From assembly GCF_009834565.1 (NCBI RefSeq), contig NZ_CP019428.1, forward strand, positions 2,914,001 to 2,978,000: 64,000 bases of DNA, in the 5' to 3' direction. The notes under the pieces were generated by a model. That model was not told the origin of the DNA. It ran no database searches and saw only the letters and a program-made list of their open reading frames with translations. Positions 1,342 to 34,222 of this stretch are shown here, in pieces (the stretch's first letter is position 1; the number at the start of each line of letters is the position of its first letter). Made by a program: the position numbers and the translations under genes. The DNA comes from Pseudomonas sp. R76 (GTDB lineage: Bacteria; Pseudomonadota; Gammaproteobacteria; Pseudomonadales; Pseudomonadaceae).

Positions 1342-13209
<11,868 letters not shown>

Positions 13210-23022: not shown

Positions 23023-24642
23023 ATGACGATCTCTCGACGTGGGTTCATCGCAGGCCTGGCGCTGACAGGCGCCGCCGTGCCCGCGGCCTTTTATGCCCAT
23101 CGCGAGCTGACGCGTGAAGAAGAATTGCCCATCACCCCGGGCGAGGCCACGGTGGATCTGGCTGACACGGCCGGCCAGCATTTGGCGAATATCCTGCGCG
23201 GTGTGTGGAGCCTGCGCCTGGAAGGCCGCGATGCCGGCCTGAAAGGCTTGCCGCTGCACGGCCTGGAAGTGCTGCTGGACATCGCCCCGCGCGGGCGCGG
23301 CTTGCGCGGCTACCTGGACACCGCCGAAAACCTGCGAGGCGAAGGTGAGCCGCGTTACCGCGTGCTCGGTGACCTGCTGACCGGCGACGGCGCATTGCTC
23401 TACTGGCGCCTGATCGACCGCGACGCGGCCAACGGCGCACCGGCCTATGAATTCAAGATGACCCTCGACGAAGTCTGGGCCGACTTCGCCAACGCCGGCA
23501 GCAGCACGCTCAGCGGGCAGATCCTCAACCTTGATCGCCCCTTGGCGTTGACCGAACGGGACAACCGCTTTGTCGCCCACAAACAGCTGTTTCCCGAAGC
23601 ACGGCAACGCATCGGCCTCAATCCGACGCTGCTGGCCTGGCTGATTTCGCCCGAACACCGCCTGTTTCACCAGCTCTGGCACGCCACGCGCGATCAGTGG
23701 CACAAGCTCTCGGAAGAAAAACGCGACGCCCTGCGCGGCATCGGCTGGCAGCCCGGGCCGCGCGGCCAGGAGCGCGACGCCCGTGGCAAGCGCAAGGACC
23801 GCAACGGTTCGGGGATCGATTTTTTCTTCATGCACCGCCATATGCTCGGCACTGCGCGCTCGATGCAAGATTTGCCGTCGTGGCCGCAATTCCCTGAGCC
23901 GCAGCCGGCCCTGGAGCGTGACCGCCTGGGCTTTGTGCGTTATTTCGACAACCACGACGGCTTTGCCCTGCCGCCCAGCTGGTCGGCGCCGGATGACGCC
24001 GATTACACCCAATGGGTCGGCGATATCAAGGCTGCCGAGACCTATCACAGCAACTTCCAGGTCTGGGAATCCCAGTACCGCGACCCGCGTTACCTGGCCA
24101 AACTGACCCTCGGGCAACTCGGCTCCGAGATGGAACTGGGCCTGCACGACTGGCTGCACATGCGCTGGGCCTCGGTGCCCCGCGACCCGTCCAACGGCGC
24201 GCCGGTGCCGTTCGCCCGCGACCCGTCGGACTTTGCCGCGCGCTGGTACGCGGCCGAGAACGACTTTCTTGGCGACCCGTTTTCATCCCATGTAAACCCG
24301 GTGTTCTGGTACTTCCACGGCTGGATCGATGACCGTATAGAGGACTGGTTTCGTGCCCATGAGCGCTTTAATCCAGGCGAGGTCAGCCGGCTTGAGGTCA
24401 ATGGCGTGAACTGGTTCGCACAAGGGCGTTGGGTGGAAGTCGGCGATCCGTGGTTGGGGCCGGACACCCATGGCTGCAGCACCACGCCGGGCTTGCAGAT
24501 GGGCCGCTCGATGGAAATGGACCCGGAGACCATGAAGCTGGCGCTACGGATTACGTTTGCTGCTGAAGATGAGGGGTTGCAGGCGTTGTTCAAACGCGTG
24601 CCGAGGCGGCCCTGGTATGCGCGGCACTTGAAGGTCAAGTAA
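23023..24642 (+). CDS. pvdP: Periplasmic tyrosinase PvdP, pyoverdine chromophore synthesis
   Basis: PvdP is the copper tyrosinase that oxidises the D-Tyr of ferribactin and drives formation of the dihydroxyquinoline chromophore. The 539-residue protein begins with a twin-arginine signal (SRRGFIAG). The N-terminal part (about 40-190) is the beta-barrel-like PvdP-specific domain; the C-terminal part carries the tyrosinase histidines, for example [21 protein letters not shown] and [12 protein letters not shown]. It is transcribed alone from its own PvdS box, divergent to pvdMNO. Its stop codon overlaps the 3' end of the convergent DUF1853 gene by 8 nt. Confidence 0.95.
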
Positions 24643-25582
24643 CGCCGGGGACGTTTGGCCATAGGTCCGCCACCAGGAACAGGCGTTCGGCTTCTTCCCA
24701 ATCCTCACCGTTGCGAACCAGCCGCACCAGTAGCTGTGCGGGTGCCATCGGGTCCAATTCCGCCAGCCAGCCGTGCATTTGTTCCTCACTCCACACCTCG
24801 GCCGGCGCGTAATGCGCCGGCGCCAGCCAGGCGTGGCGGGGCAGGGGTTGCCAGCGCCCTGACGGGCTGCCACGGACAAACGCCGGCCAATCGCGCTGAT
24901 GCAGCCAGCGCCCGCGCAAATGCTGGGGATGGGCGCCGTGGGGTGGTTCAGCCTCGCCGGGCCAGGGGTAGAGCAAATACCCGCCAAGCCACAAATGCGC
25001 ATCAAACTGCTGGATATCCAGCGTTGCCAGTGCTTCGCGGCTTTCGGCGCGTGCCGAGATCGGCAATTGGTGCTGGGCCAGGTGCGCCAGCTTGCGGTCC
25101 AGCCGATCATGACAGCCGGGGCCCAGCCATTGCGCCGCGTCCTGACCGTTACCGTCCTGCGGCCCCAGATAGAGTTTGATCGCCAGTTCCAAGTGGTGCA
25201 CGCCATCGCGGTCGCGCAGCAGCATGTCCAGCTCGCCCAAAGTGTGCCCGGCGCGGCGGATCGGCAGGTTGGCGGCCAGCAATTCCACCCCCGGTGCGTG
25301 CTGCACGGCAAATTGCCACAGGCGCTCGTAATACAAGCCCAGGCGCCGGGTGCGGGCAAGGCTCAGCCAATGCTGCAAGGCGCTGCTGTCTTGATCGAGC
25401 GCGCGCAACCATTGTTCCAACCGATGCGGTGCCTGCACCCAGTCACTGCCCGCCAGCGGGTGGCGCTGCGGCCAGGGTGTTTGCGCGAGCATCGGCGGGG
25501 CGAGCATCACCCAGGCCAAGTCGCGCACTTCGGGGTGGCGCAGTTGGCGGGGCAGGTTGTGCAAATCCGGGAACACAGTCAT
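24635..25582 (-). CDS. DUF1853 family protein with a PD-(D/E)xK-like motif
   Basis: This 315-residue cytoplasmic protein of unknown function resembles the DUF1853 family. No signal peptide or membrane segment is seen. The most informative stretch is GELDMLLRD (Asp119) followed 13 residues on by [10 protein letters not shown] (Glu132, Lys136), with a preceding helix containing YYERLW. This order resembles the PD-(D/E)xK nuclease fold, with an E-x3-K spacing that departs from the classic ExK. Nuclease activity is inference from that pattern only. It is convergent with pvdP (8-nt overlap) and divergent from nadK. Confidence 0.85.
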
Positions 25583-25726
25583 GGTCCGAGCATAGCCTTT
25601 TAACCGCCGTGCAGGTGGCTGAGAACCATTGTCATCAAGGGTTCACGGCGACAAAGGATTTTGCCTGACGCGGCCTTTCGCCCATAATCGTTGTTTTTCG
25701 CCACACCCCAACCCCGCAGGAGCCCC

Positions 25727-26617
25727 ATGGAGCAATTTCGCAATATCGGCATTATCGGTCGCCTGGGCAGTACCCAGGTGCTGGACACCGTCCGCCGACT
25801 GAAAAAGTTTCTGCTCGAGCGCCACCTGCACGTGATCCTCGAAGACACCATCGCCGAAATCCTGCCGGGCCACGGCCTGCAAACCTCGTCGCGCAAGATG
25901 CTCGGCGAAGTCTGCGACATGGTCATCGTGGTCGGCGGTGACGGCAGCCTGCTAGGTGCGGCCAGGGCCCTGGCGCGGCACAACGTGCCGGTGCTGGGGA
26001 TCAACCGGGGCAGCCTGGGGTTCCTCACCGATATCCGCCCCGATGACCTGGAAGTCGAAGTGGCCAAGGTGCTCGACGGCCATTACCTGGTGGAAAACCG
26101 CTTCCTGCTGCAGGCCGAAGTGCGCCGCCACGGTGAAGCCATCGGCCAGGGCGATGCACTCAACGATGTCGTGCTGCACCCCGGCAAGTCCACGCGGATG
26201 ATCGAGTTCGAGCTGTATATCGACGGCCAGTTCGTGTGCAGCCAGAAGGCCGACGGCCTGATCGTCGCCACGCCGACCGGTTCCACGGCCTACGCGCTGT
26301 CGGCGGGCGGCCCGATCATGCACCCCAAGCTGGATGCCATTGTGATCGTGCCGATGTACCCCCATATGTTGTCCAGCCGGCCAATTGTGGTCGACGGCAA
26401 CAGTGAGCTGAAAATCGTGGTGTCCAAAGACATGCAGATTTACCCGCAAGTCTCCTGTGACGGGCAGAACCATTTCACCTGCGCCCCCGGTGACACCATC
26501 ACCGTGAGCAAAAAGGCGCAGAAGTTGCGGTTGATCCACCCGCTGGATCACAACTACTACGAAGTGTGCCGCACCAAGTTGGGCTGGGGCAGCCGCTTGG
26601 GGGGTGGAGGCGACTGA
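25727..26617 (+). CDS. nadK: NAD kinase
   Basis: Phosphorylates NAD+ to NADP+ with ATP. The 296-residue protein shows the diagnostic GGDGS motif (70-74), then GINRGSLGFL, the substrate-binding NDVVLHPG and DGLIVATPTGSTAYALS, all in the family order. The ATG at 25727 is preferred to one 12 codons upstream because CAGGAG lies 8 nt before it and the family starts at this position. Its TGA overlaps the ATG of the phosphoesterase gene by one base, indicating translational coupling. Confidence 0.96.
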   Translation: MEQFRNIGIIGRLGSTQVLDTVRRLKKFLLERHLHVILEDTIAEILPGHGLQTSSRKMLGEVCDMVIVVGGDGSLLGAARALARHNVPVLGINRGSLGFLTDIRPDDLEVEVAKVLDGHYLVENRFLLQAEVRRHGEAIGQGDALNDVVLHPGKSTRMIEFELYIDGQFVCSQKADGLIVATPTGSTAYALSAGGPIMHPKLDAIVIVPMYPHMLSSRPIVVDGNSELKIVVSKDMQIYPQVSCDGQNHFTCAPGDTITVSKKAQKLRLIHPLDHNYYEVCRTKLGWGSRLGGGGD

Positions 26618-27588
26618 TGCTCGATCCCGCGCGTAGCTACGACCTGATTGGTGACGTGCACGGTTGCGCTCATACCCTTGAGCACTTGCTCGACCGGCTG
26701 GGCTACCAGAAACAGGGCGGCACCTGGCGCCATCCGACGCGAATGGCGGTGTTCCTCGGCGATATCATCGACCGCGGCCCGCGCATTCGCGAAGCGCTGC
26801 ACATCGTCCACGACATGGCCGAGGCCGGCCAGGCGCTGTGCATCATGGGTAACCACGAGTTCAACGCGCTGGGCTGGACCACGCCGGCGCCGCCGGGCAG
26901 TGGCAAGCAGTTCGTGCGCGAACACAACCCACGCCACGCGCGGCTGATCCACGAAACCCTGACCCAGTTCGAACACCACCCGGCTGACTGGCATGACTTT
27001 CTCGGCTGGTTCTATGACATGCCGCTGTTTGTCGACGCCGGGCGTTTCCGCGTGGTGCATGCGTGCTGGGATGACGGGTTTATCGCGCCGCTGCGCGCCA
27101 CCTTCCCGGATGGCTGCATCGACCAGCACTTCCTGCAGGCCGCCGCCGTGCCGGGCAGTTTTGCCTGCAACGCCTTCGACCGCTTGCTGCGCGGCACCGA
27201 CATGCGCCTGCCGGACGGCCTGACGCTGACCGGTGGCGATGGCCTGACGCGCTCATTCTTCCGCACCAAATTCTGGGAAGACGACCCGAAAACCTACGGC
27301 GACATTGTGTTCCAGCCCGATGCACTGCCGGAGCCGGTGGCGCGTACGCCGCTGTCGTCGACTGAAAAAAATTCCCTGCTGCGTTATGGCGTCGACGAAC
27401 CGTTGTTGTTCGTCGGCCACTACTGGCGCAGCGGCAAACCCGCGCCGATCCGCCCGAACCTGGCCTGCCTGGACTACAGCGCCGTGCTGTACGGCAAGCT
27501 GGTGGCGTACCGCCTGGATCAGGAAACCCAACTGGACCCGCGTAAATTTGTATGGGTCGATGTTGAACGGCCGGAGGTCATCACATGA
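26617..27588 (+). CDS. Calcineurin-type metallophosphoesterase
   Basis: A 323-residue cytoplasmic phosphoesterase with the full metal-binding series GDVHGC (12-17), GDIIDRG, GNHE and a later GHYW. It resembles the Ser/Thr phosphatase and diadenosine-polyphosphatase group; the substrate is unknown. The start is the ATG overlapping the nadK stop (TGATG), preceded by GGTGGAGG. The coupling to nadK suggests a nucleotide-related role, which is inference. Confidence 0.9.
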   Translation: MLDPARSYDLIGDVHGCAHTLEHLLDRLGYQKQGGTWRHPTRMAVFLGDIIDRGPRIREALHIVHDMAEAGQALCIMGNHEFNALGWTTPAPPGSGKQFVREHNPRHARLIHETLTQFEHHPADWHDFLGWFYDMPLFVDAGRFRVVHACWDDGFIAPLRATFPDGCIDQHFLQAAAVPGSFACNAFDRLLRGTDMRLPDGLTLTGGDGLTRSFFRTKFWEDDPKTYGDIVFQPDALPEPVARTPLSSTEKNSLLRYGVDEPLLFVGHYWRSGKPAPIRPNLACLDYSAVLYGKLVAYRLDQETQLDPRKFVWVDVERPEVIT

Positions 27589-27617
27589 GCCTGCGCGTAC
27601 CGTCACTGAACTTTTAA
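27585..27617 (+). CDS. Possible 10-codon leader ORF
   Basis: ATGA overlaps the phosphoesterase stop and opens MSLRVPSLNF followed by TAA; the AAGGAAG ribosome-binding site of the AAA+ gene begins at the TAA. It could be a translational relay or chance. Nothing beyond the overlap supports it. Confidence 0.2.
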   Translation: MSLRVPSLNF

Positions 27618-27626
27618 GGAAGCACC

Positions 27627-28976
27627 ATGGATGATTCGACGTTCGACCAGCTGGAGGCCGCGCTGTCTGCGGCGCCCGGCAATGTCGCGCTGCTGACCCT
27701 GCTGCTCGGCGCCAGCCTTGAGCGCGGCGAGCCTGAGCGTGGGCTTAAACTGCTGCCGGCCGACCTTGAGCAGTGGCCCGATGCCGCCGCCCTGAAGCTG
27801 GCCGCAGCGCAGCTGTGCCTGGCTGCCGGCCAGGCGCCGCGCGCCTTGCAACTGATTGAAGGTGATGACCCCGCCGCGCGCCTGCTCAAGGCGCGTGTGC
27901 TGGCGGCGTTGGAGCGTCTCAAGGAAGCCCAGGTGGAATACCGCGCAGCGGTCGATGCCAACCCGGCGCTGGAAGACATGGCGCTGTGGCGCCGCCTGAA
28001 TGTGTCGGTGCTGGATTTTCCGGCGGCGGAAGGGCGCCCGCGTTTGCGCGTGATTTCCAATGACGACACCGACCAGAGCGAAGTGGTGCGCCTGCTGGTG
28101 CCGGAAAAGGAAACCCTGACCTTTGACGATATCGGTGGCCTGGATGAGCTGAAAAAGACCATCCACAAAAAGATCATCCTGCCGTATCAAAAACCCGGCT
28201 TGTTCCAACGCTTTCGCAAGAAGGTCGGCGGCGGCGTGCTGCTGTACGGCCCGCCGGGCTGCGGCAAAACCTTATTGGCCCGCGCCACGGCGGGGGAGTG
28301 CAAGGCGACGTTTTTCAACGTGGCCATCTCCGATGTGCTGGACATGTACATCGGCGAGTCCGAGCGCAAGTTGCACGCGCTGTTCGAACAGGCGCGGGCA
28401 CAGGCGCCTGCGGTGATGTTCTTCGATGAAGTCGAGGCGCTGGGCGGCAAACGCTCCAACACCCGCGAGTCGACGTCGTCAAAGCTGGTCAGCCAGTTCC
28501 TGTCCGAAATGGACGGCTTTACCAATGACAACCACGGGGTGTTGATCCTCGCCGCGACCAACGTGCCGTGGTCGGTAGATTCGGCATTCCGCCGCCCTGG
28601 CCGCTTTGACCGGGTGCTGTTCGTGCCGCCACCGGATCGCGCAGCGCGTGAAAGCATGCTCAAGGTGATGATGAAAGGGCGGCCGATGGCCGATGACATC
28701 GACTTCGCGTTCCTGGCCAAGAACACCTCGGGTTTCTCCGGTGCCGACCTCAGCGAGCTGGTGGAAACCGCCGCCGATGAGGCGATTGACGCCTCTATCG
28801 AGAGTGGCGCGGAACAGTCGATTTGCGATCGGCATTTCAAGGCGGCGTTGAAAGAAGTGCGCGCGACCACCCTGGAGTGGCTGACCACGGCGCGCAATTA
28901 CGCGCGCTACGCCAATGAAGGCAATCAATATGACGAGGTTTTGGCCTTCCTCGACAAACACGGGAAGGGTCGCTGA
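27627..28976 (+). CDS. AAA+ ATPase with N-terminal TPR-like region
   Basis: A 449-residue soluble protein. The N-terminal 120 residues are Ala/Leu-rich helical repeats (TPR-like). The AAA+ module follows: Walker A GPPGCGKT (208-215), the pore-loop-like region with MYIGES, Walker B VMFFDEVEAL (Asp267, Glu268), sensor 1 LAATNVPW, arginine-finger region RRPGRFDR and a C-terminal lid with SGADLSELVE. The motifs are those of the Cdc48/FtsH/katanin classical clade, so it probably remodels or unfolds a protein partner. There is no protease domain. The TGA overlaps the next ATG (TGATG), so a stoichiometric relation with the two membrane proteins downstream is likely. RBS AAGGAAG. Function unknown. 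Confidence 0.9.
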   Translation: MDDSTFDQLEAALSAAPGNVALLTLLLGASLERGEPERGLKLLPADLEQWPDAAALKLAAAQLCLAAGQAPRALQLIEGDDPAARLLKARVLAALERLKEAQVEYRAAVDANPALEDMALWRRLNVSVLDFPAAEGRPRLRVISNDDTDQSEVVRLLVPEKETLTFDDIGGLDELKKTIHKKIILPYQKPGLFQRFRKKVGGGVLLYGPPGCGKTLLARATAGECKATFFNVAISDVLDMYIGESERKLHALFEQARAQAPAVMFFDEVEALGGKRSNTRESTSSKLVSQFLSEMDGFTNDNHGVLILAATNVPWSVDSAFRRPGRFDRVLFVPPPDRAARESMLKVMMKGRPMADDIDFAFLAKNTSGFSGADLSELVETAADEAIDASIESGAEQSICDRHFKAALKEVRATTLEWLTTARNYARYANEGNQYDEVLAFLDKHGKGR

Positions 28977-29461
28977 TGGCGCAGTACGGTGGTTACCGCA
29001 TCGAAGATGAACCGCGCCCGGGCGCCTTGGCCAAATGGGCGGTTTCACCGATCTGGCCATTGCTGGGCCTGATGCTCGGCGGTGCCTGGCTTGGCTTGCC
29101 ATGGTTTGTGTTCAACTCGATAGCCGTGGGCAGCCCGACGCGCGTGCGCGAGTGGGTGCTGGCCGGTGTGGCGCTGGTGGGCAGCGTGGTGATCGGCTTC
29201 GGCCTGCTGCAACTGGTGGGCTTTGGCTACATCAAGAGCCAGGCCCAGATCCAATATGCCTTGCTGGTGCTGGTGGTGTGGAAGTTGAGCCTGGGTTACC
29301 TGTTGTATATCCAGCAGAACGAAACCATTGAGATCTACCAGTACTACGGCGGCGTCCTCAACCGTTTTGGTCTTCCCTTGGCGTTGATTGGCGGCTTTGT
29401 GCTCAAGAGCATGGTGGTCAATTGGGTGCCCAGCACCCTTTGGTATCTGGTGGTGAGCTGA
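28976..29461 (+). CDS. Integral membrane protein of the AAA+/TPR module
   Basis: 161 residues with about four hydrophobic segments (near 27-50, 60-82, 90-110 and 130-158) and short polar loops. No recognised domain. It is translationally coupled to the AAA+ gene before it and to the TPR gene after it by TGATG overlaps. Inferred to be a membrane partner of the AAA+ ATPase; transport or anchoring are equally possible. Confidence 0.85.
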   Translation: MAQYGGYRIEDEPRPGALAKWAVSPIWPLLGLMLGGAWLGLPWFVFNSIAVGSPTRVREWVLAGVALVGSVVIGFGLLQLVGFGYIKSQAQIQYALLVLVVWKLSLGYLLYIQQNETIEIYQYYGGVLNRFGLPLALIGGFVLKSMVVNWVPSTLWYLVVS

Positions 29462-30384
29462 TGAATACCGATTACCTGCTGCAATTGGCTTATCAGCGCC
29501 TGCAGGCTGACCATAATGACGGCGCTATCGACGCGTTGCGCCAGTTGCTGGCCAGCGACCCGCATTCGGCCGAAGCCCACGCGTTGCTGGCGATCTGCCT
29601 GATGAATATGCGCCGCGTGCACGCGGCCAAGCGTGAAGTGCAGTTGGCCCTGGCGGCCGATGCGCAGATGCCGTTGGCCCACTACGCGGCCGCCCAGGTG
29701 GCGATTGCCCTGCGCAAATTCAGCCTGGCCCAGGAGCATCTGACCCAACTGTTGGATATGGAACCGCTCAACCCGATCAATTACCGCTGCCTGGCCGAGC
29801 TGTATCAATTGACCGGCCGCCTGGCGCAGAGCCGCGAGCCGTTGGAAAAAGCCCTGGAACTGGCCCCCGACGACGCTTCCAACCTGGTTGCAATGGCGCA
29901 ATTCCACCGTGCCAGCGGCCATTGGGACCAGGCGCATCAGTTCGCGCGCCAGGCATTGCAGGCCGATCCGAGCAATGCCGGCGCGGTGGTGGTGCTGGGG
30001 CATTTGCTGCTGCGTGAGGGCGATATCAATGGCGCTCGTGAGCATGCGATCTGGGCCTTGCAGGAAAACGCCACGAATGTCGCGGCGCTGCACCTGCTGA
30101 CGGCGGTAAAGGCCCGCAGCAATGTGTTTCTCGGTGCCTGGTGGCGCTTCAACAGCTGGATGAACGAACGCAGCGCCACCCGCGCGATTGTCCTGCTGCT
30201 GTTTATGTTCGTGGTCTATCGTGTGGTGGTTATCACCCTGGCGACCCAGGGTTACCCGCAAGTGGCCCAGATGATTGATTGGGCGTGGCTGGCGTTCGCC
30301 GCCTATACCTTTGCGGCGCCGCAGATCTTCAAGCGCTTGCTGGACAAGGAGCTGGTGCAGGTCAAGTTGTCCAAGGAATTCTGA
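29461..30384 (+). CDS. TPR protein with C-terminal membrane anchor
   Basis: 307 residues. Residues 1-220 form tandem TPR-like helical pairs (for example AEAHALLAICLMN, NYRCLAELYQLTGRLAQ, ASNLVAMAQFHRASG). The C-terminus has two hydrophobic segments (near 241-260 and 270-292). The ATG overlaps the upstream stop; a longer in-frame start would lie inside the preceding gene. The TPR part presumably faces the cytoplasm and scaffolds a complex with the ATPase, which is inference from architecture. Confidence 0.88.
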   Translation: MNTDYLLQLAYQRLQADHNDGAIDALRQLLASDPHSAEAHALLAICLMNMRRVHAAKREVQLALAADAQMPLAHYAAAQVAIALRKFSLAQEHLTQLLDMEPLNPINYRCLAELYQLTGRLAQSREPLEKALELAPDDASNLVAMAQFHRASGHWDQAHQFARQALQADPSNAGAVVVLGHLLLREGDINGAREHAIWALQENATNVAALHLLTAVKARSNVFLGAWWRFNSWMNERSATRAIVLLLFMFVVYRVVVITLATQGYPQVAQMIDWAWLAFAAYTFAAPQIFKRLLDKELVQVKLSKEF

Positions 30385-30463
30385 CGCGCCGGTATCGAGC
30401 CCGGTCGTCAATTGTCATAAGTGTATTCGCTGAACCAGCGACCGTTATCAAGAGGTTGTGTAC

Positions 30464-30724
30464 ATGTCGTCTTTTGCTGAAATGATCGAAAACATCACCC
30501 CGGACATCTACGAGAGCCTCAAGCTGGCCGTGGAAATCGGCAAGTGGTCCGATGGCCGCAAGCTCACCGCCGAGCAGCGCGAGCTGTCGCTGCAAGCGGT
30601 GATTGCCTGGGAAATCCAGAACCTGCCGGAAGAGCAGCGCACCGGCTACATGGGCCCGCAGGAATGCGCGTCCAAATCGGCGCCGGTGCCGAATATCCTG
30701 TTCAAGTCGGATGCGATCCATTGA
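30464..30724 (+). CDS. YeaC-like DUF1315 protein
   Basis: A conserved small protein (86 residues) beginning MSSFAEMIENITPDIYESLK, which matches the DUF1315/YeaC family. Function unknown. I start at the ATG at 30464; a GTG two codons earlier is possible. Its TGA overlaps the proposed TTG start of the next gene, suggesting coupling. Confidence 0.85.
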   Translation: MSSFAEMIENITPDIYESLKLAVEIGKWSDGRKLTAEQRELSLQAVIAWEIQNLPEEQRTGYMGPQECASKSAPVPNILFKSDAIH

Positions 30725-31551
30725 TTGAAATTGGTCGCGGTGCAGTCAGCAAAATGTCGGCGCAACTCGGTGAGCCGACTGTTCAATACGCGTTTCGTCT
30801 AGGCGATACCGAGGTGCCGGTCAACCCGTTGATCGGTACTCACGTGCGCCTGGAGTTCCTCGGTGCCATCCATTGCAGCCATTGCGGCCGCAAGACCAAG
30901 ACCAGTTTCAGCCAGGGTTACTGCTACCCGTGCATGACCAAACTGGCCCAGTGTGACCTGTGCATCATGAGCCCCGAGCGTTGCCATTACGACGCCGGCA
31001 CTTGCCGTGATCCGGGTTGGGGCGAGCAGTTCTGCATGACCGACCACGTGGTGTACCTGGCCAATTCGTCAGGCATCAAGGTCGGCATCACCCGTGCTAC
31101 CCAACTGCCGACCCGCTGGCTTGACCAGGGCGCCAGCCAGGCGTTGCCGATCATGCGCGTCGCCACCCGCCAGCAATCCGGCTTCGTCGAAGACCTGTTC
31201 CGCAGCCAGGTGGCCGACAAGACCAACTGGCGCGCGTTGCTCAAGGGTGACGCGCAATCGGTGGACCTCAAGCAGGTGCGCGATGCGCTGTTCGCCTCCT
31301 GCGCCGATGGCTTATTGAGTTTGCAGGAACGCTTTGGCCTGCAGGCCATCCAACCGGTAACCGACCTCGAACCGCTCGAAATCCGCTACCCGGTGGAGCA
31401 GTATCCCGCCAAGATCGTCAGCTTCAACCTGGACAAGAACCCGATTGCCGAAGGCACGCTGCTGGGGATCAAGGGCCAATACCTGATCTTCGACACCGGC
31501 GTTATCAACATTCGTAAGTACACGGCCTATCAGCTCGCCGTGCATCAGTAG
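30721..31551 (+). CDS. DUF2797 protein with Cys-rich region and GIY-YIG-like core
   Basis: About 276 residues if translation starts at the TTG that overlaps the preceding stop, 265 if it starts at the ATG at 30754. I prefer the TTG because IEIGRGAVSKMSAQLG looks like conserved coding sequence continuous with the domain. The N-terminal half has paired cysteines (CSHCGRK, CYPCMTK, CDLC, then further Cys), probably zinc-binding. HVVYLANSSGIKVGITR followed by TRWLDQGA and a Glu in FVEDLF resembles the GIY-YIG/T5orf172 nuclease core. Enzymatic function is unproven. Confidence 0.85.
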   Translation: MIEIGRGAVSKMSAQLGEPTVQYAFRLGDTEVPVNPLIGTHVRLEFLGAIHCSHCGRKTKTSFSQGYCYPCMTKLAQCDLCIMSPERCHYDAGTCRDPGWGEQFCMTDHVVYLANSSGIKVGITRATQLPTRWLDQGASQALPIMRVATRQQSGFVEDLFRSQVADKTNWRALLKGDAQSVDLKQVRDALFASCADGLLSLQERFGLQAIQPVTDLEPLEIRYPVEQYPAKIVSFNLDKNPIAEGTLLGIKGQYLIFDTGVINIRKYTAYQLAVHQ

Positions 31552-31564
31552 AAGGATGCCACCC

Positions 31565-34222
31565 ATGCGCACCGAACAACCGAAGATGATTTACCTGAAG
31601 GACTATCAGGCACCGGACTACCTGATCGAAGAGACGCACCTGACCTTCGAGTTGTTCGAGGACCACAGCCTGGTCCACGCGCAACTGGTGATGCGCCGCA
31701 ACCCTGAGCGTGGCCCCGGCCTGCCGCCGCTGGTGCTTGATGGCCAGCAGCTTGAGCTGCTGACCGTCAACCTGGGCGACCGCGAACTGAGCGAAGCCGA
31801 CTACCAGCTGACCGACAGCCACCTGACTCTGCACCCGACCAGTGAGACCTTCACGGTCGACACCAGCGTGCGCATTCACCCGGAAACCAACACCGCGCTG
31901 GAAGGGTTGTACAAATCCAGCGGCATGTTCTGCACCCAGTGCGAGGCCGAGGGTTTCCGCAAGATCACCTATTACCTCGACCGCCCGGACGTGATGAGCA
32001 CCTTCACCACCACGGTGATCGCCGAGCAACACAGCTACCCGGTGCTGCTGTCCAACGGCAACCCGATTGCCAGCGGCCCCGGCGAAGACGGCCGCCACTG
32101 GGCGACCTGGGAAGACCCGTTCAAGAAACCCGCTTACCTGTTCGCGCTGGTGGCCGGTGATTTGTGGTGCGTTGAAGACACCTTCACCACCATGACCGAG
32201 CGCACCGTGGCGCTGCGCATCTACGTCGAGCCGGAAAACATCGACAAGTGCCAGCACGCCATGAACAGCCTGAAAAAATCCATGCGCTGGGACGAAGAGA
32301 CCTACGGCCGCGAGTATGACCTCGACATCTTCATGATCGTCGCGGTGAATGACTTCAACATGGGCGCCATGGAGAACAAGGGCCTCAATATCTTCAACTC
32401 CAGCGCCGTGCTGGCCCGCGCCGAAACCGCCACCGACGCCGCGCACCAGCGCGTCGAGGCGATCGTCGCCCACGAATACTTCCACAACTGGTCGGGCAAC
32501 CGCGTGACCTGCCGCGACTGGTTCCAGCTGTCGCTGAAGGAAGGCTTCACGGTGTTCCGTGATTCGGGCTTCTCCGCCGACATGAACTCGGCCACCGTCA
32601 AGCGCATCCAGGACGTGGCCTACCTGCGCACGCACCAGTTCGCCGAAGACGCCGGTCCCATGGCCCACGCGGTGCGCCCGGACAGCTTTATCGAAATCTC
32701 CAACTTCTACACCCTTACCGTGTACGAAAAGGGCTCGGAAGTGGTCGGCATGATCCACACCTTGCTCGGCGCCGAAGGCTTCCGTAAAGGCAGCGACCTG
32801 TATTTCGAGCGCCACGACGGCCAGGCCGTGACCTGCGACGATTTCATCAAGGCCATGGAAGACGCCAACGGCGCCGACCTGACCCAGTTCAAGCGCTGGT
32901 ACAGCCAGGCCGGCACGCCACGCCTGGCGGTGAGCGAGTCCTACGACGCCGCCGCCAAGACCTACAGCCTGACCTTCCGCCAGAGCTGCCCGCAAACCCC
33001 GGACAAGGTTGAGAAGCTGCCATTCGTGATTCCGGTGGAATTGGGCCTGCTGGACGCGAAGGGCGCCGGCATTGCCTTGCGCCTGGCCGGTGAGGCAGCA
33101 GCGGGCGGCACCTCGCGGGTGATCTCGGTGACCGAAGCCGAGCAGACGTTCACCTTCGTCGATATCGCTGAAAAGCCGTTGCCTTCGCTGCTGCGCGGCT
33201 TCTCGGCGCCCGTGAAGTTGAGCTTCCCGTACAACCGCGACCAACTGATGTTCCTGATGCAGCACGACAGCGACGGGTTCAACCGTTGGGATGCCGGCCA
33301 GCAGTTGTCGGTGCAGGTGTTGCAGGAGTTGATTGCTCAGCATCAAGCCGGTCAGCCGTTGAAGCTCGATCAGCGCCTGATCGACGCGCTGCGCACGGTG
33401 CTCAGTGATGAAAGCCTGGACCAGGCGATGGTCGCCGAAATGCTCTCGTTGCCAAGCGAAGCCTACCTGACGGAAATCAGTGAAGTGGCGGATGTGGATG
33501 CCATCCACGCTGCCCGAGAATTCGCCCGCAAGCAGCTGGCCGGCAACCTGTACGAATCGCTGTGGCTGCGTTACCAGGCCAACCGCGAGCTGTCCAAGCA
33601 AACCCCTTACGTGGCGGCGGCCGAGCACTTTGCGCGTCGCGCCTTGCAGAACATCGCGCTGTCTTATCTGATGCTCAGCGGCAAGCCTGAAGTGCTGGCG
33701 GCAACGCTGGACCAGTTCGACACCAGCGACAACATGACCGAACGCCTGACCGCGCTGGCGGTGCTGGTGAATTCGCCGTTCGAGGCGGAGAAGGCCCAGG
33801 CGCTGGCCGTGTTTGCCGAGAACTTCAAAGACAACCCGCTGGTCATGGACCAATGGTTCAGTGTTCAGGCTGGCTGCACTTTGCCGGGCGGGCTGGCACG
33901 GGTTAAAGCGTTGATGGAACACCCGGCGTTCAACATCAAGAACCCGAACAAGGTGCGGGCGCTGATCGGCGCGTTTGCCGGTCAGAACCTGATCAACTTC
34001 CACGCCGCCGATGGCTCGGGCTACCGTTTCCTCGCCGACCTGGTGATCCAGTTGAACGGCTTCAACCCGCAGATCGCCTCGCGCCAATTGGCGCCACTGA
34101 CCCGCTGGCGTAAATACGACAGCGCGCGCCAGGCGCTGATGAAGGCGGAGCTGGAGCGCATTCGTGCATCCGGCGAGCTGTCGAGTGATGTGTTCGAGGT
34201 GGTCAGCAAGAGCCTTGCGTAA
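31565..34222 (+). CDS. pepN: Aminopeptidase N
   Basis: Cytosolic zinc M1 aminopeptidase that trims N-terminal residues from peptides. 885 residues, full length for the proteobacterial family. Exopeptidase motif GAMEN at 267-271; zinc site HEYFH at 303-307 with the third ligand Glu326 in LKEGFTVFRD. The C-terminal helical domain runs to the end. The start at 31565 (MRTEQPKMIYLKDY) is chosen over one three codons upstream because AAGGATG precedes it and it matches the family N-terminus. It follows the DUF2797 gene by 13 nt and ends at a clear terminator. Confidence 0.96.
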   Translation: MRTEQPKMIYLKDYQAPDYLIEETHLTFELFEDHSLVHAQLVMRRNPERGPGLPPLVLDGQQLELLTVNLGDRELSEADYQLTDSHLTLHPTSETFTVDTSVRIHPETNTALEGLYKSSGMFCTQCEAEGFRKITYYLDRPDVMSTFTTTVIAEQHSYPVLLSNGNPIASGPGEDGRHWATWEDPFKKPAYLFALVAGDLWCVEDTFTTMTERTVALRIYVEPENIDKCQHAMNSLKKSMRWDEETYGREYDLDIFMIVAVNDFNMGAMENKGLNIFNSSAVLARAETATDAAHQRVEAIVAHEYFHNWSGNRVTCRDWFQLSLKEGFTVFRDSGFSADMNSATVKRIQDVAYLRTHQFAEDAGPMAHAVRPDSFIEISNFYTLTVYEKGSEVVGMIHTLLGAEGFRKGSDLYFERHDGQAVTCDDFIKAMEDANGADLTQFKRWYSQAGTPRLAVSESYDAAAKTYSLTFRQSCPQTPDKVEKLPFVIPVELGLLDAKGAGIALRLAGEAAAGGTSRVISVTEAEQTFTFVDIAEKPLPSLLRGFSAPVKLSFPYNRDQLMFLMQHDSDGFNRWDAGQQLSVQVLQELIAQHQAGQPLKLDQRLIDALRTVLSDESLDQAMVAEMLSLPSEAYLTEISEVADVDAIHAAREFARKQLAGNLYESLWLRYQANRELSKQTPYVAAAEHFARRALQNIALSYLMLSGKPEVLAATLDQFDTSDNMTERLTALAVLVNSPFEAEKAQALAVFAENFKDNPLVMDQWFSVQAGCTLPGGLARVKALMEHPAFNIKNPNKVRALIGAFAGQNLINFHAADGSGYRFLADLVIQLNGFNPQIASRQLAPLTRWRKYDSARQALMKAELERIRASGELSSDVFEVVSKSLA

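Follow-up and report, generated by a model that had tools for sequence, protein, structure and literature searches.

A membrane-associated TPR-AAA+ gene module exchanged with a GlpG-like rhomboid gene at one Pseudomonas locus

What work might an AAA+ gene module do when it occupies the chromosomal site of an intramembrane protease? The question is raised by a locus of Pseudomonas sp. R76, in the 64,000-nucleotide stretch (contig NZ_CP019428.1, forward-strand positions 2,914,001 to 2,978,000) that is referred to here as the window. Three genes, A, B and C, encode a tetratricopeptide repeat (TPR)-AAA+ ATPase, a four-segment membrane protein and a TPR membrane protein. A TGATG overlap was found at both the A/B and B/C junctions, and the three genes form one unit, as an earlier note made from the sequence alone had claimed. 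The module has repeatedly been swapped for a rhomboid gene in Pseudomonas.

Module and rhomboid at a shared site

In Pseudomonas, the module lies between a metallophosphatase gene and DUF1315. The same site otherwise houses a GlpG-like rhomboid intramembrane protease. The metallophosphatase was present in 59/59 searched genomes of the genus. Downstream of it, 16 of the 30 fetched loci were readable: gene A came next in two, and DUF1315 followed after 888–912 bases in 14. In all seven module-free relatives read, the gap contained an open reading frame (ORF) of 289–291 residues starting at the metallophosphatase stop; in rhomboid-bearing relatives, this stop and the rhomboid start overlap or are almost contiguous. 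The gap ORF encodes a rhomboid protease with NRho and Rhomboid domains. It matched solved GlpG structures (E = 8e-27), and its N-terminal domain matched 2gqc, a 70-residue rhomboid piece. Because its score against the GlpG equivalog was 150 of 250 bits, we call it GlpG-like. We take the Pseudomonas gap rhomboid to be PA3086.

Gene order was compared for 60 rhomboid-bearing sites, hand-picked for breadth, and 25 module loci, which include some strains twice (for example, L014/L101 and L016/L096). The metallophosphatase–rhomboid order was kept in 60/60 rhomboid loci, followed by DUF1315 in 58 (undetected in the extracts of L162 and L175). The metallophosphatase–A–B–C order was kept in 25/25 module loci, followed by DUF1315 in 24 (undetected in L024).

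Within Pseudomonadaceae, the rhomboid orthologue was absent wherever the module was present (0/10 in the genus, 0/4 in the family draw). The rhomboid search of 249 genomes of the genus gave matches in 238; the 11 genomes without a match were nine of the ten module-bearing ones, together with G910 and G1000. The nine had no match at E 1e-10, and the tenth, G854, gave a weak one (5e-16); the sole PF01694 match of G854, in a 219-residue frame, is remote from the module. Among the 239 module-free genomes, 236 had an orthologue at E 2e-91 or better, G909 had a weak match (7e-11), and two had none. The strict table (orthologue in 0/10 module-bearing vs 236/239 module-free genomes) gave a Fisher P value of 1.4e-15, and counting any rhomboid match gave 6e-14. 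For the Pseudomonadaceae draw of 148 genomes, the rhomboid was found in 0/4 module-bearing and 139/144 module-free genomes (P = 7e-6). Three of these four belong to another genus, g12, and the module-bearing sets of the two draws (10 and 4) share one genome. At E 1e-3, PF01694 had no match in 6/10 module-bearing genomes of the genus and was present in 14/14 controls.

Since the Fisher P values ignore kinship, a quick maximum-likelihood tree was made from the NAD kinase, metallophosphatase and pepN proteins of 82 of the 85 loci. At least 14 changes of state were needed on this tree, and well-supported branches force no fewer than 12 of these. Shuffled labels required 21 changes on average, and 0/500 shuffles had as few as observed. 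With 14 changes against 21, the module/rhomboid state is partly inherited, yet has often changed. Allele divergence tracked flank divergence (r = 0.86 for the module in 24 loci and 0.92 for the rhomboid in 58), which suggests that both alleles have been present since long ago.

The pair Pseudomonas sp. TH15 and TH43 has A, B and C proteins without difference and flank proteins that are 6.5% different. Their DNA is 96–99.7% identical over approximately 3 kb matching the module, and 77–94% identical outside it. For eight close module/rhomboid pairs, the flanks were 82–99% identical right up to both junctions. The TH15/TH43 block and the flanks conserved up to the junctions indicate that the module moves as one cassette, which replaces the rhomboid gene.

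The three proteins and their setting

Gene A matched Pfam AAA (E = 1e-42) and AAA_lid_3. The TPR-like N-terminus proposed in the earlier note was supported by several homologues with TPR_19 among their precomputed Pfam hits, but the window protein itself stayed under the Pfam cut-off (TPR_19, 22.3 vs 25 bits). When A was aligned with 20 homologues, the stretches that we take to be Walker A (GPPGCGKT), Walker B (FFDE), sensor-1 (ATN) and the arginine finger (RRPGRFDR) were largely invariant. The pore-loop position 241 was aromatic in 21/21 aligned proteins. Because of this motif conservation and the aromatic residue at position 241, gene A is expected to encode an active threading ATPase.

The NCBIfam scores of gene A for FtsH, PAN and CDC48 (229, 227 and 220 bits) lie close together and all far under the cut-offs, so the label 'Cdc48-clade' given previously was too specific. 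Four identities were rejected. As Cdc48/p97 (TIGR01243), A reached 219.6 vs 802.65 bits and has one AAA domain, where that family requires two in tandem. FtsH (TIGR01241) joins AAA and zinc metalloprotease domains in a single chain; A reached 229 vs 600 bits, with the alignment limited to profile positions 151–383 of 598, and no peptidase family was among the Pfam hits of gene A. PAN and proteasomal ATPases carry a C-terminal HbYX motif; A scored 227 vs 500 bits and ends in HGKGR. The partner of the anti-phage ATPase IetA is the adjacent subtilase-type protease IetS; against the IetA model (NF042959), A scored 107.5 vs 510 bits, and neither of the adjacent genes has a protease-family match.

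Gene B had no match in the Pfam, NCBIfam or PADLOC libraries. Its four hydropathy peaks, together with an AlphaFold2 model (72 sequences; mean predicted local distance difference test score of 91) containing four membrane-length helices, the first of them broken, bear out the four-segment membrane protein that had been read from the sequence. One source names a B homologue Yip1. This name was rejected, as Yip1 is absent from the 19 Pfam families matched by any of the 72 B members. A structure look-up for B was uninformative: both rhomboid and Yip1 entries were absent from the 50 matches listed. For gene C, Pfam found three TPR_19 stretches. Of the two C-terminal membrane segments proposed for it, the one near residue 251 is a strong hydropathy peak; the other, near residue 280, is weaker and was judged by eye.

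The module fits the protease-free, membrane-bound remodelling machine envisaged in the earlier note, with an AAA+ protein tethered to the membrane. The remark there that no named system of this make-up is known also stands. Neither the triad nor the rhomboid swap is described among the literature matches listed, most subscription journals being outside coverage.

The features of the locus are collected in Table 1. The gene run in the window is NAD kinase, metallophosphatase, A, B, C, DUF1315, DUF2797 and pepN. The closest named homologues of A and B are Pseudomonas proteins. A mobile island was considered and rejected, since the GC content of the module stretch (0.60–0.64) falls inside the window range (0.56–0.66). 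A promoter and terminator scan of the locus gave no signal exceeding shuffles.

Table 1. Positions of the module genes, junctions and flanking genes in the window
Feature	Position	Strand	Description
Gene A	27627..28976	+	TPR-AAA+ ATPase, 449 aa; single classical AAA domain; free of transmembrane (TM) segments and protease domains
Gene B	28976..29461	+	4-TM protein, 161 aa, no named family; conserved N-terminal YRIxDEPRPG and GGxWLGLPWFVFN
Gene C	29461..30384	+	TPR protein, 307 aa; conserved membrane C-terminus WWRxNxW ... KELxQVKLSxxF
5' swap junction	27589..27626	+	gap from metallophosphatase stop to gene A
3' swap junction	30385..30463	+	gap from gene C to DUF1315
NAD kinase	25691..26617	+	flank; NF002306, 520 bits vs cut-off 316
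Calcineurin-like metallophosphatase	26611..27588	+	upstream flank common to both alleles; PF00149
DUF1315	30464..30724	+	downstream flank common to both alleles; PF07023
DUF2797 protein	30544..31551	+	flank; PF10977; domain starts ~98 residues into the listed ORF, whose start overlaps DUF1315
Aminopeptidase N (pepN)	31556..34222	+	flank; TIGR02414, 1331 bits
DUF1853 protein	24635-25582	-	conserved neighbourhood member in most compared loci

The module beyond its Pseudomonas site

A scan for B, based on one peptide pattern and genomes taken one per species, yielded a sample of 30 loci. These came from Pseudomonas, a Beggiatoa-like genome, Acidobacteriota, Myxococcota, other Pseudomonadota and Arenimonas. 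C was beside B in 30/30 and A on the other side of B in 28/30; in L034, the contig begins inside A. The two B loci without A were L035 and L038, the latter at a contig end. In L035, which belongs to a metagenome-assembled genome (MAG) of Myxococcota, B and C are adjacent and the genome is without A at E 1e-60. Shortly before B, this locus has the end of a long ORF, probably the DinG/YoaA-like helicase found among the neighbours.

Sampling anchored on A avoids the bias to B; the window's own genome was counted once. A was found in 4/148 Pseudomonadaceae, 4/398 Pseudomonadota and 10/249 genomes of the window's genus, and in 10/146 genomes of a Myxococcus phylum and 6/149 of a Holophagae MAG phylum. 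This gave 32 distinct genomes, 23 of them with A-B-C in order. The same order in Pseudomonadota, Acidobacteriota and Myxococcota makes the arrangement more than chance. In G270, where A is 50% identical, C is present and a short hydrophobic ORF replaces B. Eight of the 32 genomes had no B by tblastn or by the B profile; their A proteins are 42–49% identical, with 55% over the AAA part only in G563. A C-like TPR protein was found beside A in seven of these eight, and a profile match to the membrane part of C in G563 alone; G709, on a 4.9-kb contig, had no C-like TPR protein beside A.

Because the distant A genomes without B mostly keep a C-like TPR protein, they point to a wider family, of which A-B-C is one branch. 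The strict co-occurrence of the three families, which the earlier note had named as support, was found in 23/23 genomes with a close A, but it does not extend to the distant A relatives, which are without B. The TPR-AAA+ loci without B look like sister systems. The distant loci of this kind are L080 (where A is 55% identical over the AAA part only), L081, L082, L084, L085, L086, L089 and L092; in L080, L085 and L086, a different small membrane protein is encoded upstream.

A simple ORF caller gave 101 neighbour proteins for 20 distant loci. BLAST among the neighbours of 13 loci found only scattered similar pairs, mostly between the kindred L033 and L036. With families listed by member number, no Pfam family occurred in more than three and no NCBIfam family in more than one of the 101 proteins. 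No gene beyond A-B-C recurs widely beside the distant modules.

A rhomboid gene divergently adjoins A in two of the 31 distant loci scanned, a set in which one locus occurs twice and some loci lack B. In L087, an acidobacterial genome, it lies at ~6468-7310 (+), approximately 120 bases from A; in L093 (Arenimonas malthae), at ~4816-5475 (-), approximately 70 bases from A. The chance expectation of a rhomboid within 2 kb, a limit set afterwards, was 0.04 cases in 19 genomes (P = 8e-4). The catalytic serine of rhomboids lies in the motif GxSG. The Arenimonas protein has GANA in its place and so may be a pseudoprotease.

Among Pseudomonadaceae, the genomes with neither gene are G910, G1000, G002, G012, G029, G041 and G053, four of them in genus g13. 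In contig C17 of G1005, a short rhomboid gene (202265-202660) lies approximately 7.5 kb from gene A (210149-211492).

Proposed function and known systems

We propose that A-B-C is an ATP-driven quality-control machine, which extracts membrane proteins and stands in for the rhomboid, and we give this proposal an even chance of being correct. A, B and C would form one inner-membrane machine recognizing unfit or orphan membrane proteins and pulling them from the bilayer with ATP. From the domain content, B may be the receptor, C the anchor and A the motor. The four membrane helices of B would provide the client-binding or exit part within the bilayer. C would serve as the membrane tether; its TPRs, together with those of A, would dock the AAA ring and the clients, and A would thread the client via its aromatic pore loop. 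Extracted clients could go on to FtsH or another general protease, or be refolded or dispersed. In Pseudomonas, the module would then be a mutually exclusive allele of the GlpG-like rhomboid at the NAD kinase–pepN locus, assuming its quality-control work. Complex formation, topology, client extraction and functional equivalence with the rhomboid are all inferred here.

As the module is the alternative to a rhomboid at one fixed site, membrane-protein quality control is favored over assembly in general. Shigella GlpG and Rhom7 are reported to remove orphan membrane proteins (PMC7232013). YqgP is described as working with FtsH as a client adaptor, in a manner that the authors call analogous to a primordial ERAD (endoplasmic-reticulum-associated degradation; PMC7231995), and eukaryotic Derlin pseudo-rhomboids are reported to recruit Cdc48/p97 (PMC12615303). 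The simplest joint reading of the swap and of these published rhomboid and Derlin roles would be that A-B-C pulls instead of cutting. The rhomboid genes beside A in L087 and L093 add a hint in this direction. A bolder form of this idea, which we put forward tentatively and hold to be somewhat doubtful, is a bacterial counterpart of ERAD: a single-ring TPR-AAA+ dislocase with two membrane subunits would repeatedly and interchangeably replace a rhomboid, so that Pseudomonas species would switch between cutting and pulling of orphan membrane proteins.

Several findings weigh against the proposed extraction machine. For B, rhomboid and Derlin Pfam profiles are absent from the 19 families matched by any of the 72 members at E <=5. 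Other rhomboids persist in module-bearing Pseudomonadaceae: the window's genome, G848 and G1005 each keep a short one elsewhere, missed by the GlpG-like query, G854 keeps another, and the three g12 genomes keep two others each. Outside the family, 18/19 module genomes also have at least one rhomboid (PF01694), so the module is not a general rhomboid substitute. The rhomboid may also be dispensable, because some Pseudomonadaceae lack both genes, namely G910 (86% complete), G1000, which carries a short rhomboid at another place, and five others. The table of a 2025 review gives PA3086 without substrate or role, so the replaced function itself is unproven in Pseudomonas.

Recombinational allelic exchange alone would yield mutual exclusion, whatever the functions. 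The site may simply exchange easily, the module doing another job and the loss of the rhomboid being a tolerated side effect. We consider this explanation rather unlikely. The recombination block and the clean drop-in between 82–99% identical flanks explain the exclusion mechanically, and both the distant genomes that carry module and rhomboids together and the seven Pseudomonadaceae genomes with neither gene agree with it. However, the rhomboid is kept in 236/239 module-free genomes, so its loss alone is uncommon; it is absent at the site in 25/25 module loci after many state changes, and two distant lineages have a rhomboid beside the module. That the module serves as an assembly or insertion chaperone of one membrane complex, not quality control, appears improbable. 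TPR, AAA+ and membrane subunits without a protease would fit an assembly factor, as would the finding that no protease family was among those in more than one neighbour protein, but there is no conserved client gene nearby (the top Pfam family reaches 3/101 neighbour proteins of the 20 distant loci), and disposal is suggested by the fact that the replaced gene encodes a protease.

The patchy spread, the cassette exchange and the combination of an AAA+ protein with membrane partners could also mark a phage-defence or phage-escape allele, and A does score against the IetA defence ATPase models. That score is far under its cut-off (107.5 vs 510), however, and B and C are without a subtilase match. 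A PADLOC test of A, B, C and the 101 neighbour proteins gave no support: matches among the neighbours were scattered, with no family in more than two of the 101 at E 1e-10. B was absent from 72,556 plasmid and 50,697 phage records. The module moreover replaces a gene at a core site, with no island setting, and we regard a role in defence as very improbable.

AAA+ remodelling of membrane proteins is of a known kind; the surprising part is the locus swap. A very widespread protease family gains a natural knockout and a candidate stand-in, and the Pseudomonas locus makes the purpose of bacterial rhomboids directly testable by allele swap. The B and C families, conserved yet with neither a name nor an assigned function, gain a context. 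Should A-B-C prove to extract membrane proteins, bacteria would have a protease-free parallel to Cdc48–Derlin ERAD.

One close comparison is with Cdc48/p97 and its Derlin or Dsc partners in ERAD and in endosome and Golgi-associated degradation (EGAD). Both systems combine a classical AAA ring and an aromatic pore loop with membrane partners, are protease-free, and are linked to rhomboid-superfamily proteins. Cdc48/p97 has two AAA domains and A has one; an N-domain stands where A has TPRs, a ubiquitin system, of which there is none with A-B-C, belongs to the eukaryotic machine, and B shows no Pfam-profile relationship to rhomboids. FtsH includes a protease and TM segments; A has neither. The YqgP–FtsH pair of Bacillus subtilis, as described in PMC7231995, resembles the proposed machine as a form of bacterial membrane-protein quality control that pairs an AAA+ motor with a client receptor in the membrane; the Pseudomonas module, in contrast, occurs in the absence of the GlpG-like rhomboid. 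That rhomboid (NRho and Rhomboid domains) shares with the module its site, its neighbours and its membrane nature, but it is unrelated in sequence and mechanism, being an intramembrane serine protease and not an ATPase module. IetAS is similar in that A matches the AAA part of the IetA models and differs in that A stays far under the cut-off and has membrane partners instead of a subtilase-type one. Cpa, an actinobacterial Cdc48-like protein, is likewise a bacterial relative of Cdc48-type AAA proteins; it is reported as a proteasome interactor (PMC6017811), whereas A-B-C is a membrane triad.

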